A DNA stretch of 64,000 nt, taken from the NCBI GenBank assembly GCA_013414795.1, contig CP058732.1:1711950-1775949 (forward strand), in the 5' to 3' direction. Every line of letters starts with the position of its first letter. Positions within the stretch are counted from its first letter, which is position 1. Position numbers and translations under genes: made by a program. The notes under the pieces are model-generated. The model worked only from the letters and a program-made list of their open reading frames with translations, searched no databases and had not been told where the DNA came from. Of this stretch, positions 40,519 to 44,540 are shown one piece after another. The stretch is from Candidatus Kapaibacterium sp. Lineage in GTDB: Bacteria; Bacteroidota; Ignavibacteria; Kapaibacteriales; UBA2268.

Positions 40519-42375
40519 CTATTCGACGATTGCGTTCTTTTTGAATTTCCTTGACACTCTAATAGCATCTCTCTCTGCTTCTTCATATGTTCTATACCCC
40601 CACAAGACAACTTTGTACATCATTTGATTTCTTGAAAATAGTCTATCGTAATAAGACTTGTAACCTAACTTTTCCCAAAATTCAACTTTTCTTTCTGCTT
40701 GCTCCTCGCTTGATACCGTATCAACGACGATTGTGAAAGGCAAAATTTCTGGTAAAAGCCAACGAATTTCTACTCTTCTGTTGAACAAACTGCTGTTCTC
40801 ATCATCTTCGTTGGGATAAATGGGCTTACTAATCCCAATACCCTTTGTACGAATCTGCGAGGGATAAACCCCTTTCGAAACAAGCCTTTTTTGAACAGCC
40901 AAAGCCCGCTCCAACGACAGTTTAATTGGGTCGGAATAACTTTCACCAATACTGGCTGTACCGATTAGTTCCAAGGTCAAATTTCTGTGTGTAATCAGAA
41001 GGTTTGCTAGATTGTCTATCGTTGGCAAAAAAACATCCTTAATCGTCGTATCAGAATGTTCAAAAAGGGACACAGCCTGATAGTTTGTGTAAAACGTGCG
41101 GTCTTGAATAGGAAATGAATGTTCATCTGAAAAACTAATGTTACCAAAACTAACCGATGCTATTATATCTAAATCTTTGCATTTCAATTCCTTTCTCGAA
41201 AACTTTATTTTTGCACCGAAATAGTATTTACTGGAAAAAATGACTTCGACAAGACTTTTACCAATTTCACTTAATTTCCAGGGAAAATGGTAGAAATTTC
41301 CACCAGTCTTTGAGGACAAATATTTATACACAGATGGCGAAACTTCATTTCCAAAAGTGATACAATTTATAGCAATTTTCTTGCTTTTTGCCTTCGAAAT
41401 CACATCCTCAAGTGTGTAATTTATCGAGGAGTTATCCATACGGTTCGTAATAAGGACAACTTTTGTATTGGTTTCACCTTCTAAATTATCAATTAAACTA
41501 CATAAAGAATAAAAAACTGAACTCAATTCATTGCTTCGAGGAAATTCAAAAGCCTCCAAGTCCCACAAAAACTTGTCCGAACGCTCCAAAGGTATAACAT
41601 TTGCAACTCGAACACCAAAGAAATTTAAAGAAACCCTGTCCCCAATGTCAAGGAATTTAATTGATTCGACAATGTCTTGTTTTATTTGTGGAATTTCATT
41701 TAAAACAGAATAGTCGATAATGAAATGGACATCAATTCTTTCGTCAATCCTGAAACTTTTCGCAAGATTGAGGTACTCACTGGTAGAAAATTTCCCAGCA
41801 CATTTCTGTTCGATTTGTAATTTTATGTCGGAGGAATGCTTGGATACTTCGTAACAAAAATTACCATTTTCATCCAAAAGGACAAAATCAACCGAAAGGC
41901 TATCGAAATTTGTATCTTCTGAAAGCCTAAGTATTTTCAAACGACTAACATTTGAAATCGGGGCATCCGAGAAACCGCAGTAAAAGTTTGTTTTTTGCGT
42001 ATTTTTATAACTGAAGATATCTTCTACAAATCTTGGTCCCCTTTGTATTGTCTTTTTGGGTTCGACGGATTGATTTTCTTTACTATTTACGAGAATATAT
42101 GCAGATTGGGTAATTTGTTGATTTCCTTCACCATAAGCAACAACATCAAGACGAAGCGAAGAAACAGGTTTTAACCAAAGAGAATCAGTTGGGTTGAAGT
42201 CATAATCATAACCACTTACTCGGACGAATTTAGCATTTAAAAATTCCCAGGAAATGCAAACACTATCCCCTTTTTGAATTTCAATATAATTTGGGAACTT
42301 GTTAACAATTATACGTTCCGTAGAACAAGAAAGCAAAACCAAAAAAACGAGACAAGAAATTAAAAAAATTCTCAT
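40519..42375 (-). CDS. Lipoprotein with vWA, OmpA-like and SPOR domains
   Basis: About 618 residues from MRIFLIS; the lipobox LLSC gives Cys17. After an N-terminal beta domain comes a von Willebrand A-like region (about 210-390: DVHFIIDYSVLNEI in place of the DxSxS MIDAS, KVVLITNRMDN), then an OmpA-like peptidoglycan-binding segment (about 475-555: LELIGTASIGESY..., LSLERALAVQKRLVSKG, NRRVEIRW) and a C-terminal SPOR domain (about 565-618) that binds denuded glycan. The MIDAS is incomplete, so metal binding is doubtful. This combination ties the protein to peptidoglycan at two points. It starts four bases after the ClpB fragment and precedes the cytochrome by 10 bases. Confidence 0.78.
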   Translation of the reverse strand: MRIFLISCLVFLVLLSCSTERIIVNKFPNYIEIQKGDSVCISWEFLNAKFVRVSGYDYDFNPTDSLWLKPVSSLRLDVVAYGEGNQQITQSAYILVNSKENQSVEPKKTIQRGPRFVEDIFSYKNTQKTNFYCGFSDAPISNVSRLKILRLSEDTNFDSLSVDFVLLDENGNFCYEVSKHSSDIKLQIEQKCAGKFSTSEYLNLAKSFRIDERIDVHFIIDYSVLNEIPQIKQDIVESIKFLDIGDRVSLNFFGVRVANVIPLERSDKFLWDLEAFEFPRSNELSSVFYSLCSLIDNLEGETNTKVVLITNRMDNSSINYTLEDVISKAKSKKIAINCITFGNEVSPSVYKYLSSKTGGNFYHFPWKLSEIGKSLVEVIFSSKYYFGAKIKFSRKELKCKDLDIIASVSFGNISFSDEHSFPIQDRTFYTNYQAVSLFEHSDTTIKDVFLPTIDNLANLLITHRNLTLELIGTASIGESYSDPIKLSLERALAVQKRLVSKGVYPSQIRTKGIGISKPIYPNEDDENSSLFNRRVEIRWLLPEILPFTIVVDTVSSEEQAERKVEFWEKLGYKSYYDRLFSRNQMMYKVVLWGYRTYEEAERDAIRVSRKFKKNAIVE

Positions 42376-42379
42376 AAGA

Positions 42380-43699
42380 TTATATCTTGGAAAATACAAA
42401 TTCACCATTTTGTGCATCAATAAGAATCTTATCCCCCGAGCCAAACTTCCCTTCCAGAACCAAAAGCGCAAGTTTGTCGACGATGTGTTTCTGAAGCGCA
42501 CGCTTCAAAGGTCGAGCACCAAACTGCGGGTCAAAGCCAATGGAGGCAATCAAGTCCAGAGCATTTTGATTGACTTCAATATCAATTCCATTTTCTTTCA
42601 TCTTCTTTCGAATTTTTTCCAACTGTAGCAGTGCAATTTGGTGGATATCCTCTTTAGTCAAAGGTTTGAAAACAATAATGTCATCAATTCTGTTCAAGAA
42701 TTCTGGTCGAAGCCGTTTTTTCAACAATTCAAAAATCTCATCTTTCAATCTGTCCATTACTACATCACGATTTGATGAGGTTAAATGTTCAAGTCTGTCT
42801 TGTATTAATTCCGTCCCCAAGTTAGAAGTCATAATAATAATAGTATTTTTAAAATTAACTACCCTACCTTTGCTGTCGGTCAATCTACCATCGTCGAGAA
42901 CTTGCAGAAGTATATTGAACACGTCTGGATGCGCCTTTTCAATTTCGTCCAGAAGCACTACGGAATATGGACGCCTTCGAACTGCTTCCGTAAGTTGTCC
43001 TCCTTCTTCATAACCCACGTAACCTGGGGGAGCACCAATCAACCTTGAAACCGAAAACTTTTCCATATACTCGCTCATATCAATGCGGACCATAGCATTC
43101 TCGTCATCAAAAAGGAATTCGGCGAGTGCTCTTGCTAATTCTGTTTTTCCAACCCCAGTGCTTCCAAGAAATATAAATGAACCAATTGGTCTATTCACAT
43201 CTTGAAGACCAACCCTCGAACGGCGAATTGCATTTGCAACCGCACGCACAGCTTCCTCTTGGTCGACAAGTCTTTGATGAATACGCTCTTCCATTTTTAA
43301 AAGTTTAGTGCGCTCGCTTTCAAGCATCCTTTGAACGGGAATGCCAGTCCATTTCGAAACAATTTCAGCAATATCTTCTGCATCTACTTCTTCTTTCAAC
43401 AATTTCCCGTCCTTTTGAACCTCCTGCAATTTCGCATTAACTTCGTTCAACTTCTTATTAAGTTCGTGGAGTAACCCGTAGCGTATTTCTGCAACTTTTG
43501 CAAGGTTACCCTGGCGTTCATATTCGTCCGCCTGAATGCGTAAATTTTCAATTTGGGCTTTGTAATCACGAATTTGTTGAATAAGACTTCTTTCTAATTC
43601 CCAACGAGCACGCAAAGCCTCTCGTTTTCTTTTTAACTCTTCCAATTCATTTTCAATTTCTTTAAGTCTTTCAAAGGTTGCTTTTGTGGATTCGTCCAT
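42380..43699 (-). CDS. ClpB-like AAA+ disaggregase lacking the N-domain and NBD1
   Basis: 439 residues versus about 860 for full ClpB. It begins partway through the M-domain coiled coil ([19 protein letters not shown]), includes the conserved [16 protein letters not shown] linker, and keeps a complete second AAA+ module: Walker A GSTGVGKT (179-186), pore loop GYVG (about 226), Walker B VVLLDE (about 247), sensor 1 TSNLG, Arg finger FLNRID, sensor 2 GARPLKR. The N-domain and NBD1 are missing; upstream is a TATTTTTG promoter box and the terminator of another gene, not a decayed coding sequence. Either a functional one-ring form or a truncated paralogue; the frame is intact. Confidence 0.88.
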
Positions 43700-43733: not shown

Positions 43734-43741
43734 CAAAAATA
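43734..43741 (-). promoter_or_regulatory. -7 box TATTTTTG upstream of the shortened clpB-like gene
   Basis: A TAnnTTTG match 34 bases before the ATG, within the 76-base gap left after the upstream terminator. It suggests that the truncated gene is transcribed on its own. Confidence 0.45.
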
Positions 43742-43774: not shown

Positions 43775-43802
43775 AAAAGGCTGACAAAATAGCCAGCCTT
43801 TT
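43775..43802 (-). terminator. Intrinsic terminator of the lipoprotein gene at 43825-44502
   Basis: A 9-bp stem AAAAGGCTG / CAGCCTTTT with a 10-base loop and a T run on the minus strand, 23 bases after the stop codon. Confidence 0.88.
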
Positions 43803-43824
43803 AATTTCATAACTTCCGCTACAA

Positions 43825-44502
43825 TTACTTCTCTTCTAAATCAACTTTTTGTCCATTGTCGAGTTCAAGATACAATGGACGCCAGGAAACAAATATTTGT
43901 TGTGGATTTTCTGTTAACATTTTGATAAGGAACTCTTCATTTTTGTTTCCTTCTTCGAATTTAAATGTAGATTGAAATTGTGTAAACTGCCCACCTTTAA
44001 TAGTCTGGTCAATATTTATTCTATATGCTCTAACTAACTGGTTACCAGCAGTAAAGAATTGTAAATAGCCATAGATTTTCTTAATGTCAGTTTTAGAAAT
44101 GTTCGAAATTGTGTAAGTGAAGACATTAAACTTCGAGCCATTTATGTCTACTGGCTTCCAACCATCGTATCGGAAACGAGAGAAAGCAGTAATTGCATTT
44201 GTGGCAAGATTAATCCCGCTTTGTCGAAAGCGAAGTTTCTTCTCTTGCTCAATGATTTCCTTCACAGACTTGTTATAAAGAGAATCAATTAAATTATTGT
44301 ACCGAGCAACTCCACTGCTAAAATAATCAAGGTCTTCGATTGTCATCAAACTATCTTTTCGAGCCTTTTCAATTACTTCGAAGAAATTTTGAGCAGTAAT
44401 TTTTTCATTGAGCAACTTGGAAGTTTTTTTCTTTGGTTCACAACCATTAGAAAAAACGATAACTAATGCTAAAAACAAAACAAAGAAACTGGATGTTCTC
44501 AT
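43825..44502 (-). CDS. Uncharacterised lipoprotein
   Basis: 225 residues from MRTSSFF; a lipobox FSNGC gives Cys21. The first half is helical and charged (IEKARKDSLMTIEDLDYFSSG). The second half is a beta-sandwich-like segment (FNVFTYTISNISKTDIKKIYGYLQFFTAGNQLVRAYRI...), reminiscent of DUF-type domains for extracytoplasmic interaction. No enzyme motif and no family was recognised. It has a TAATTTTG promoter box at 44541 and its own terminator, so it is a single-gene unit. Confidence 0.7.
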   Translation of the reverse strand: MRTSSFFVLFLALVIVFSNGCEPKKKTSKLLNEKITAQNFFEVIEKARKDSLMTIEDLDYFSSGVARYNNLIDSLYNKSVKEIIEQEKKLRFRQSGINLATNAITAFSRFRYDGWKPVDINGSKFNVFTYTISNISKTDIKKIYGYLQFFTAGNQLVRAYRINIDQTIKGGQFTQFQSTFKFEEGNKNEEFLIKMLTENPQQIFVSWRPLYLELDNGQKVDLEEK

Positions 44503-44540
44503 AGAAAATCCTAATATGTTATACAAAAATTACAAATTTA

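Follow-up and report, generated by a model that had tools for sequence, protein, structure and literature searches.

Two separate genes for the halves of ClpB, divided within the M-domain, in Candidatus Kapaibacterium sp. and its relatives

Among AAA+ machines with two rings, ClpB/Hsp104, the class I Hsp100 protein, is a central model. Studies that we found of whether its rings must be covalently joined used engineered pieces. The human relative CLPB/Skd3 has one ring, of the type of nucleotide-binding domain 2 (NBD2), and is not known to have an NBD1 partner; it is described as a mitochondrial AAA+ disaggregase with an N-terminal ankyrin domain. When NBD1 with the middle domain (M-domain) and NBD2 of Thermus thermophilus ClpB were produced separately, they were reported to re-associate (PMC4239642), and an NBD1/NBD2 complex was reported to form when NBD2 retains the last NBD1 helix (PMC2689388). 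A search of the open-access literature gave no account of a ClpB that is split in nature. The split sequences themselves are not new to databases; UniProt lists separate ClpB 1 and ClpB 2 half-proteins for the green sulfur bacterium Chlorobaculum tepidum, probably the same split, entered as two probable chaperones and not as one machine. Here, we describe a 64,000-nucleotide stretch of contig CP058732.1 of Candidatus Kapaibacterium sp. (the window), which carries a gene for the C-terminal half of ClpB (C-half). In this genome, clpB is two separate genes, and the halves that they encode fit end to end.

The C-half is encoded by an intact open reading frame (ORF; Table 1) with only 17 open codons upstream of its ATG (456 codons from stop to stop). 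Its match to the ClpB profile TIGR03346 covered profile positions 427-852 only (E 9e-191, 636.3 bits), and PF07724 (AAA_2) and PF10431 (ClpB_D2-small, E 4.4e-24) were found in it. Upon alignment with solved structures, the C-half corresponded to residues 430-849 of E. coli ClpB and 428-846 of T. thermophilus ClpB. In particular, it contained the M-domain from the wing-1 turn onward, the last NBD1 helix, NBD2 and D2-small, and by reading we identified Walker A (GSTGVGKT), Walker B (LLDEIEKAH), the pore loop GYVG, NRID and GARPLKR. A preliminary description of the window, made from its letters, had reported the intact 439-codon frame with NBD2 motifs and the lack of N-domain or NBD1 sequence upstream, where a promoter box and the terminator of another gene were seen instead; re-reading of the frame, the motifs and the upstream region bore out both statements. 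The same description had assigned half an M-domain to the protein. The C-half, starting at the equivalent of E. coli residue 430, holds about four fifths of this domain, whose limits we take to be about 409-524 in E. coli numbering. The predicted structure of the C-half (predicted local distance difference test score, pLDDT, 85.5; predicted template modeling score, pTM, 0.68; five models from 86 to 66) showed helices at residues 3-62 and 66-97, so that the first helix began at residue 3, and matched the ClpB structures of E. coli (4ciu) and T. thermophilus (1qvr). A ClpP-binding tripeptide in an NBD2 loop sets ClpC apart from ClpB. By reading, neither IGF nor LGF was present between SNLGTEL and RPEFLNRID in the window's protein, and LGF was present at that place in the ClpC-like protein of the same genome.

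The window's genome, a single contig of 2,660,650 bases that is 97.65% complete, was searched with TIGR03346. The search revealed the gene of the N-terminal half (N-half) outside the window, with a profile match at 1825162-1826445 on the + strand (679.2 bits) and an intact ORF that ended seven residues past the match. The N-half aligned with residues 3-433 of E. coli ClpB and 1-424 of T. thermophilus ClpB, and it contained the N-domain and NBD1 together with the first helix of the M-domain; two PF02861 (Clp_N) stretches corresponded to a two-repeat N-domain. The two genes are divergent, on opposite strands, with about 70 kb between them. No full-length single-chain ClpB was found on the 2.66-Mb contig, and the only other two-ring Clp protein found in this genome was ClpC-like (856 residues). 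The separate NBD1 half that the preliminary description had proposed to look for therefore exists as an intact 440-codon gene. Neither chain reached the TIGR03346 cut-off of 1232 bits, and both remained below that of TssH/ClpV (TIGR03345, 885 bits), with 448.6 bits for the N-half and 393.9 bits for the C-half. Compared with single-chain ClpB/Hsp104, the same domains and catalytic motifs were present but were spread over two genes and two chains, with the cut falling inside the M-domain, at the turn of wing 1. Both wings of this domain were obtained only across the two chains (E. coli residues of about 409-433 on the N-half and 430-524 on the C-half), and the two rings have no covalent continuity.

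The cut site was compared among 32 genomes for which the halves were fetched, of which 31 were counted (G238 was dropped before all pair counts), and 20 genomes with full-length ClpB. The break was at one place in all 31 aligned pairs; the N-halves ended 3-13 residues past the glutamate that corresponds to E432 of E. coli, and the C-halves, counted from the chosen start codon, started 6-14 residues before a conserved R/K-L/I. In the predicted structure of one full-length ClpB (L067; mean pLDDT 85.4, pTM 0.58, five models from 85 to 67), this site was a loop of four residues (433-436), flanked by helices 412-432 and 437-493. Judging from this model, the cut would open a predicted turn at the tip of wing 1 of the M-domain, beside the switch residue E432. 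The coiled coil of the M-domain is reported to have E432 at one end and Y503 at the other, the E432A mutant is described as repressed, and cysteines at positions 431 and 499 are reported to crosslink adjacent subunits (PMC4023160).

Both halves retained the features of working genes. The NBD1 motifs were each present in 31/31 pairs (Walker A G[ED]PGVGKT, Walker B LFIDE and the arginine pair ERRFQ), and the aromatic pore loop 1 was kept in 30 of them. The NBD2 motifs were also found in every pair (G.TGVGKT, Walker B with minor variants, GY[VI]G and sensor 2 GARP.[KR]R); pore loop 2 was GYVG in 29 pairs and GYIG in two, and the motif-2 tyrosine of the C-half was found in 30. In 12 comparisons within the window's genus, nonsynonymous divergence (dN) was 0.06-0.17 and synonymous sites were saturated in 11; the ratio to synonymous divergence (dN/dS) was below 0.06 with dS set at 3 where saturated. 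In the same pairs, dN was lower in the N-half than in the C-half. As judged from these substitution patterns, both halves are under purifying selection. The distances of the N- and C-halves correlated with an r of 0.84 over 465 pairs, compared with 0.89 for the halves of full-length proteins; shared ancestry alone gives high values, which makes the correlation weak evidence.

We found the same arrangement throughout much of the group to which the genome belongs. No full-length ClpB over the cut-off was present in the genome itself and 59 relatives (0/60), nor in any of the 103 genomes of the window's order with a completeness of 90% or more that were searched with TIGR03346. At 1e-165, 87 of these genomes gave two or more matches, typed as N and C among the matches listed, 12 gave one and four gave none. 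A looser search was applied to the 16 genomes with fewer than two matches and to four more. Six of the 16 (G026, G031, G037, G054, G352 and G366) turned out to contain the second half in pieces. Both halves were thus traceable, at least in pieces, in 93 of the 103 genomes, and neither half was found in three (G036, G359 and G030). G036 (100% complete, 20 contigs) has kept ClpC without either ClpB half, and G359 and G030 are less complete. In G046, the second match was TssH, and its own C-half was in pieces. The C-terminal piece of G026 was considered as the end of a ClpC, but its best matches were C-halves, and ClpC was outside the best 12 hits. Additionally, the C-half of G037, a single-contig genome, is represented by two overlapping frames (G037:C1:984725-986009), from error or decay, and the N-half occurs twice in G003 (contamination 5%), at C24:24777-26060 and C4:82269-83552.

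Full-length ClpB over the cut-off was found in 183 of 296 genomes of the phylum. The split was also present in five genomes from four further families of the window's class (f16, f18, f20 and f22) and in families f26, f28, f41 and f53. We infer that the latter four families are green sulfur bacteria, because all 14 of their genomes that were tested carry the Fenna-Matthews-Olson protein, which we take to be a marker of this group, and the 12 other genomes tested do not. Among 74 genomes of these families, none had a full-length ClpB and 68 had both halves. A 2007 paper names C. phaeobacteroides as the only Chlorobi species with ClpB (PMC1887533). By single-chain criteria, bacteria with a split ClpB appear to lack ClpB, and this annotation is corrected here. 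Natural separation of the rings, at a site next to a known switch residue, extends over an order and the green sulfur bacteria; the latter would offer culturable organisms for studying the split ClpB.

Several candidates for other arrangements were rejected. Full-length matches of about 740 bits, which could have been a hidden ClpB in the order, were obtained in L016, L018, G051, G353, G354 and G355; the two that were typed (L016 and L018) were TssH/ClpV, over the cut-off of that family. This type VI secretion ATPase is carried by some members of the order. In G238 (L146), a single-contig genome considered as an adjacent and younger split, clpB is of the full-length type, and a frameshift interrupts an A-rich stretch of its wing-1 helix. 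This frameshift, likely a sequencing indel, precedes the split site seen in the other genomes by about a dozen codons. The partial matches of G263 (1-535) and G266 (1-580) were not counted as split, and that of G263 begins at contig base 3. Among the best 80 named loci, we found two short closed frames, 69 long closed frames and nine that ran off the contig end; the genomes of both short closed frames contained the other half elsewhere.

A CGTCT box was first seen upstream in four of the initial genomes and was then counted in 20 freshly fetched genomes of the order. Over all 37 genomes of the order, the box was present upstream of the N gene in 17, of the C gene in 18 and of both in 14, whereas among 121 other ORFs it preceded 8 (Fisher test, p 2e-7 and 4e-8; N-C association p 2e-4; relatedness not corrected). 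Only with the 20 additional genomes and these control ORFs did the box stand out. One of the hits before the C gene (G058) is on the coding side. CGTC is typical of the -10 boxes of extracytoplasmic function (ECF) sigma factors.

We consider it likely, with a probability of about 0.85, that clpB has been split into two genes whose chains re-associate as an ordinary two-ring ClpB. Complex formation is suggested by the sequences, because the cut takes away only a four-residue turn. Upon association, helix L1 of the N-half would pack on helix L2 of the C-half, the small domain of NBD1 would be completed by the last NBD1 helix carried by the C-half, and six N and six C chains would form a two-tier hexamer working with DnaK like ordinary ClpB. 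For the engineered two-chain T. thermophilus ClpB (Beinker et al. 2005, JBC, as cited in PMC4239642 and PMC2689388), the complex is reported to form when NBD2 carries the last NBD1 helix, as the natural C-half does. Because the same cut is present in the green sulfur bacteria and in many bacteria related to them, the machine seems able to work without a continuous chain. Some observations weigh against re-association. The engineered protein is cut at a different place, with its M-domain on the NBD1 part, whereas the natural cut is inside the M-domain and leaves most of it on the NBD2 part. The halves are apart in every genome with known positions; therefore, equal dosage of N- and C-chains is not guaranteed. 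One half only was found in seven of the 103 genomes of the order (N-half in G034, G378 and G014; C-half in G188, G350, G343 and G376) and in six of the 74 green sulfur genomes (N-half in G122 and G166; C-half in G284, G330, G231 and G288), for which draft assembly may be the cause. Furthermore, the CGTCT box is absent from the window's own genome, and its counts in the first 31 pairs (five N and six C, compared with shuffle means of 2.0 and 2.1 and maxima of 6 and 7) were not significant.

The C-half alone could be a one-ring disaggregase, one of the two readings in the preliminary description, or an unfoldase, while the N-half does something else. The C-half has a complete NBD2 and the greater part of the M-domain with its motif-2 tyrosine (30/31), a lipoprotein-like gene adjoins it in 13/17 genomes of the order, C-only genomes exist (4/103 in the order and 4/74 in green sulfur bacteria), and CLPB/Skd3 is a one-ring relative. 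Unlike CLPB/Skd3, however, the NBD1 half is here encoded elsewhere in the genome. The one-ring reading is disfavored because this genome and most of its relatives also encode the complementary half, which evolves with the lower dN and keeps its NBD1 catalytic motifs; the last NBD1 helix of the C-half would have no obvious use without NBD1, and the upstream box is common to both genes in part of the order. We regard this explanation as highly improbable. The two halves could also have diverged into two proteins with separate partners, such as the C-half with the neighboring envelope lipoprotein, so that ClpB is no longer formed. The separate loci, the conserved neighbor of the C-half and the single-half genomes would agree with such a divergence, which we nevertheless consider unlikely: neither half has gained a new domain, with only 3-13 residues past the E432 equivalent and 6-14 before the conserved RL, the motifs and constraint resemble those of full-length ClpB, and the lipoprotein neighbor is absent from 14 split genomes outside the order.

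A recent rearrangement, an assembly error or a decaying pseudogene in this genome would fit the divergent halves on one contig, which are placed as an inversion with one breakpoint would leave them. This explanation is refuted by the relatives and has a negligible probability, as the same break occurs in 31/31 pairs from many families, both frames are intact with low dN/dS, and the full-length gene is found in 0/103 genomes of the order. The suggestion of the preliminary description that a recent rearrangement left an expressed 3' half holds for the intact 3' half and the rearrangement. It does not hold for the date, because the window's order and the green sulfur bacteria have the same break. 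The short form was conserved in relatives, and in the genus (G001-G004) the halves are separate and open, with no adjacent 5' half. Frameshifts in sister strains had been named beforehand as contrary evidence; the genus gave no such result, and elsewhere in the order the C-half of G037, of another family, is broken into two overlapping frames. Joining of the products after synthesis, by a split intein or trans-splicing, is hardly conceivable; we found nothing in support of it, the Pfam scan of the two halves of the window's genome revealed no intein, and an intein half needs more residues than the 3-13 and 6-14 available at the junction.

The origins of the two-gene arrangement were examined in a concatenated quick gene tree of 66 rows (31 split, 20 full-length from the phylum and 15 named outgroups). 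A single clade of all split rows was rejected (approximately unbiased test, p 0.0012), and a single clade of the 22 split rows of the window's class was not (p 0.079). The tree broadly followed the group codes, and the green sulfur rows were beside full-length rows of other classes, not beside the window's class. A D-x-x-S linker, common to the outgroups, is found in most full-length members of the window's class. Because one clade of all split rows was rejected and this linker would hardly be recreated by re-fusion, the sequences favor at least two fissions at one site. Against several origins, the C-halves share an Ile at one column (30/31, compared with 13/35 in full-length proteins) and a Thr at another (21/31, where full-length proteins have Ser in 18 of 21 filled positions), and these junction residues hint at a shared origin. 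In separate trees of the N- and C-halves, the main groups agreed; some rows of the window's class (G230, G180 and G215/G256) were placed differently with weak support, which also speaks against the reading of several fissions. L049, a record titled Candidatus Kuenenia, fell inside the Bacteroidota full-length ClpB and is probably a mislabeled or contaminated bin.

An inversion with one breakpoint inside clpB is a plausible mechanism, because the halves are divergent in the window's genome, in G023 (11 kb apart), in G314 (34 kb apart) and in seven green sulfur genomes. These seven belong to genus g98 (G118, G173, G089, G093, G205, G242 and G318; about 21-34 kb apart), in which G108, G159 and G223 differ. 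Both halves are on one strand in G001, G024, G215, G317, G354, G108, G159 and G130. We tentatively propose, as a possibility that we hold with less than even confidence, that gene fission at one and the same turn of the M-domain gave rise to a natural two-chain Hsp100 disaggregase on two or more occasions, once in green sulfur bacteria and once in the window's class. As the open turn lies next to E432, a regulatory residue, the split may alter M-domain switching, and the N:C ratio may serve as a new point of control.

The features of the window and the partner gene are listed in Table 1.

Table 1. Positions of the two clpB genes and of features next to the C-half gene.
Feature	Position	Strand	Remarks
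clpB C-half, 439 aa	42380..43699	-	Intact ATG-start ORF, 439 codons
clpB N-half, 440 aa, outside the window	C1:1825147-1826469 = window-equivalent 113198-114520	+	TIGR03346 1-428
Lipoprotein-like gene, OmpA domain	40519..42375	-	PF00691 E 3.6e-10; PF00092 (VWA) and PF05036 (SPOR) below cut-offs
TATTTTTG box, candidate promoter element	43734..43741 (numbered on + strand)	-	Read from sequence; 35 bases before the C-half start codon
Hairpin and T-run, likely terminator of upstream gene 43825-44526	about 43778..43803	-	Read from sequence

The TATTTTTG box resembles what we take to be the Bacteroidota promoter element TAnnTTTG. This pattern was found upstream of 2/31 N and 7/31 C genes, compared with shuffle means of 3.5 and 3.4, which is weak evidence for the box. 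The heat-shock operator CIRCE (controlling inverted repeat of chaperone expression) was not matched with five or fewer mismatches in about 180 bases upstream.

The stop codon of the C-half is separated by four bases (42376-42379) from the ATG of the lipoprotein-like gene (42375), whose product starts with a lipoprotein-like signal. This neighbor, as reported earlier, is real, and a homologue was found 3' of the C-half on the same strand in all of the 17 genomes of the order examined except G006, G020, G023 and G053, covering families f1, f2, f4, f5, f6, f8 and f10. Because it is kept in 13/17 genomes of the order and in 0/14 split genomes elsewhere, the lipoprotein partner is conserved in much of the order, yet it does not belong to the split as such. 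The search for neighbors common to the loci of full-length and of split clpB gave one weak hit only, and no neighbor of the N-half common to the whole order was seen. In 4/4 genus members that were examined, the gene behind the N-half encodes a response regulator carrying an HD domain, a pairing absent from all other genomes of the set; in the window's genome (L008:2808-4228), this regulator directly follows the N-half and is itself followed by an FlbD homologue.
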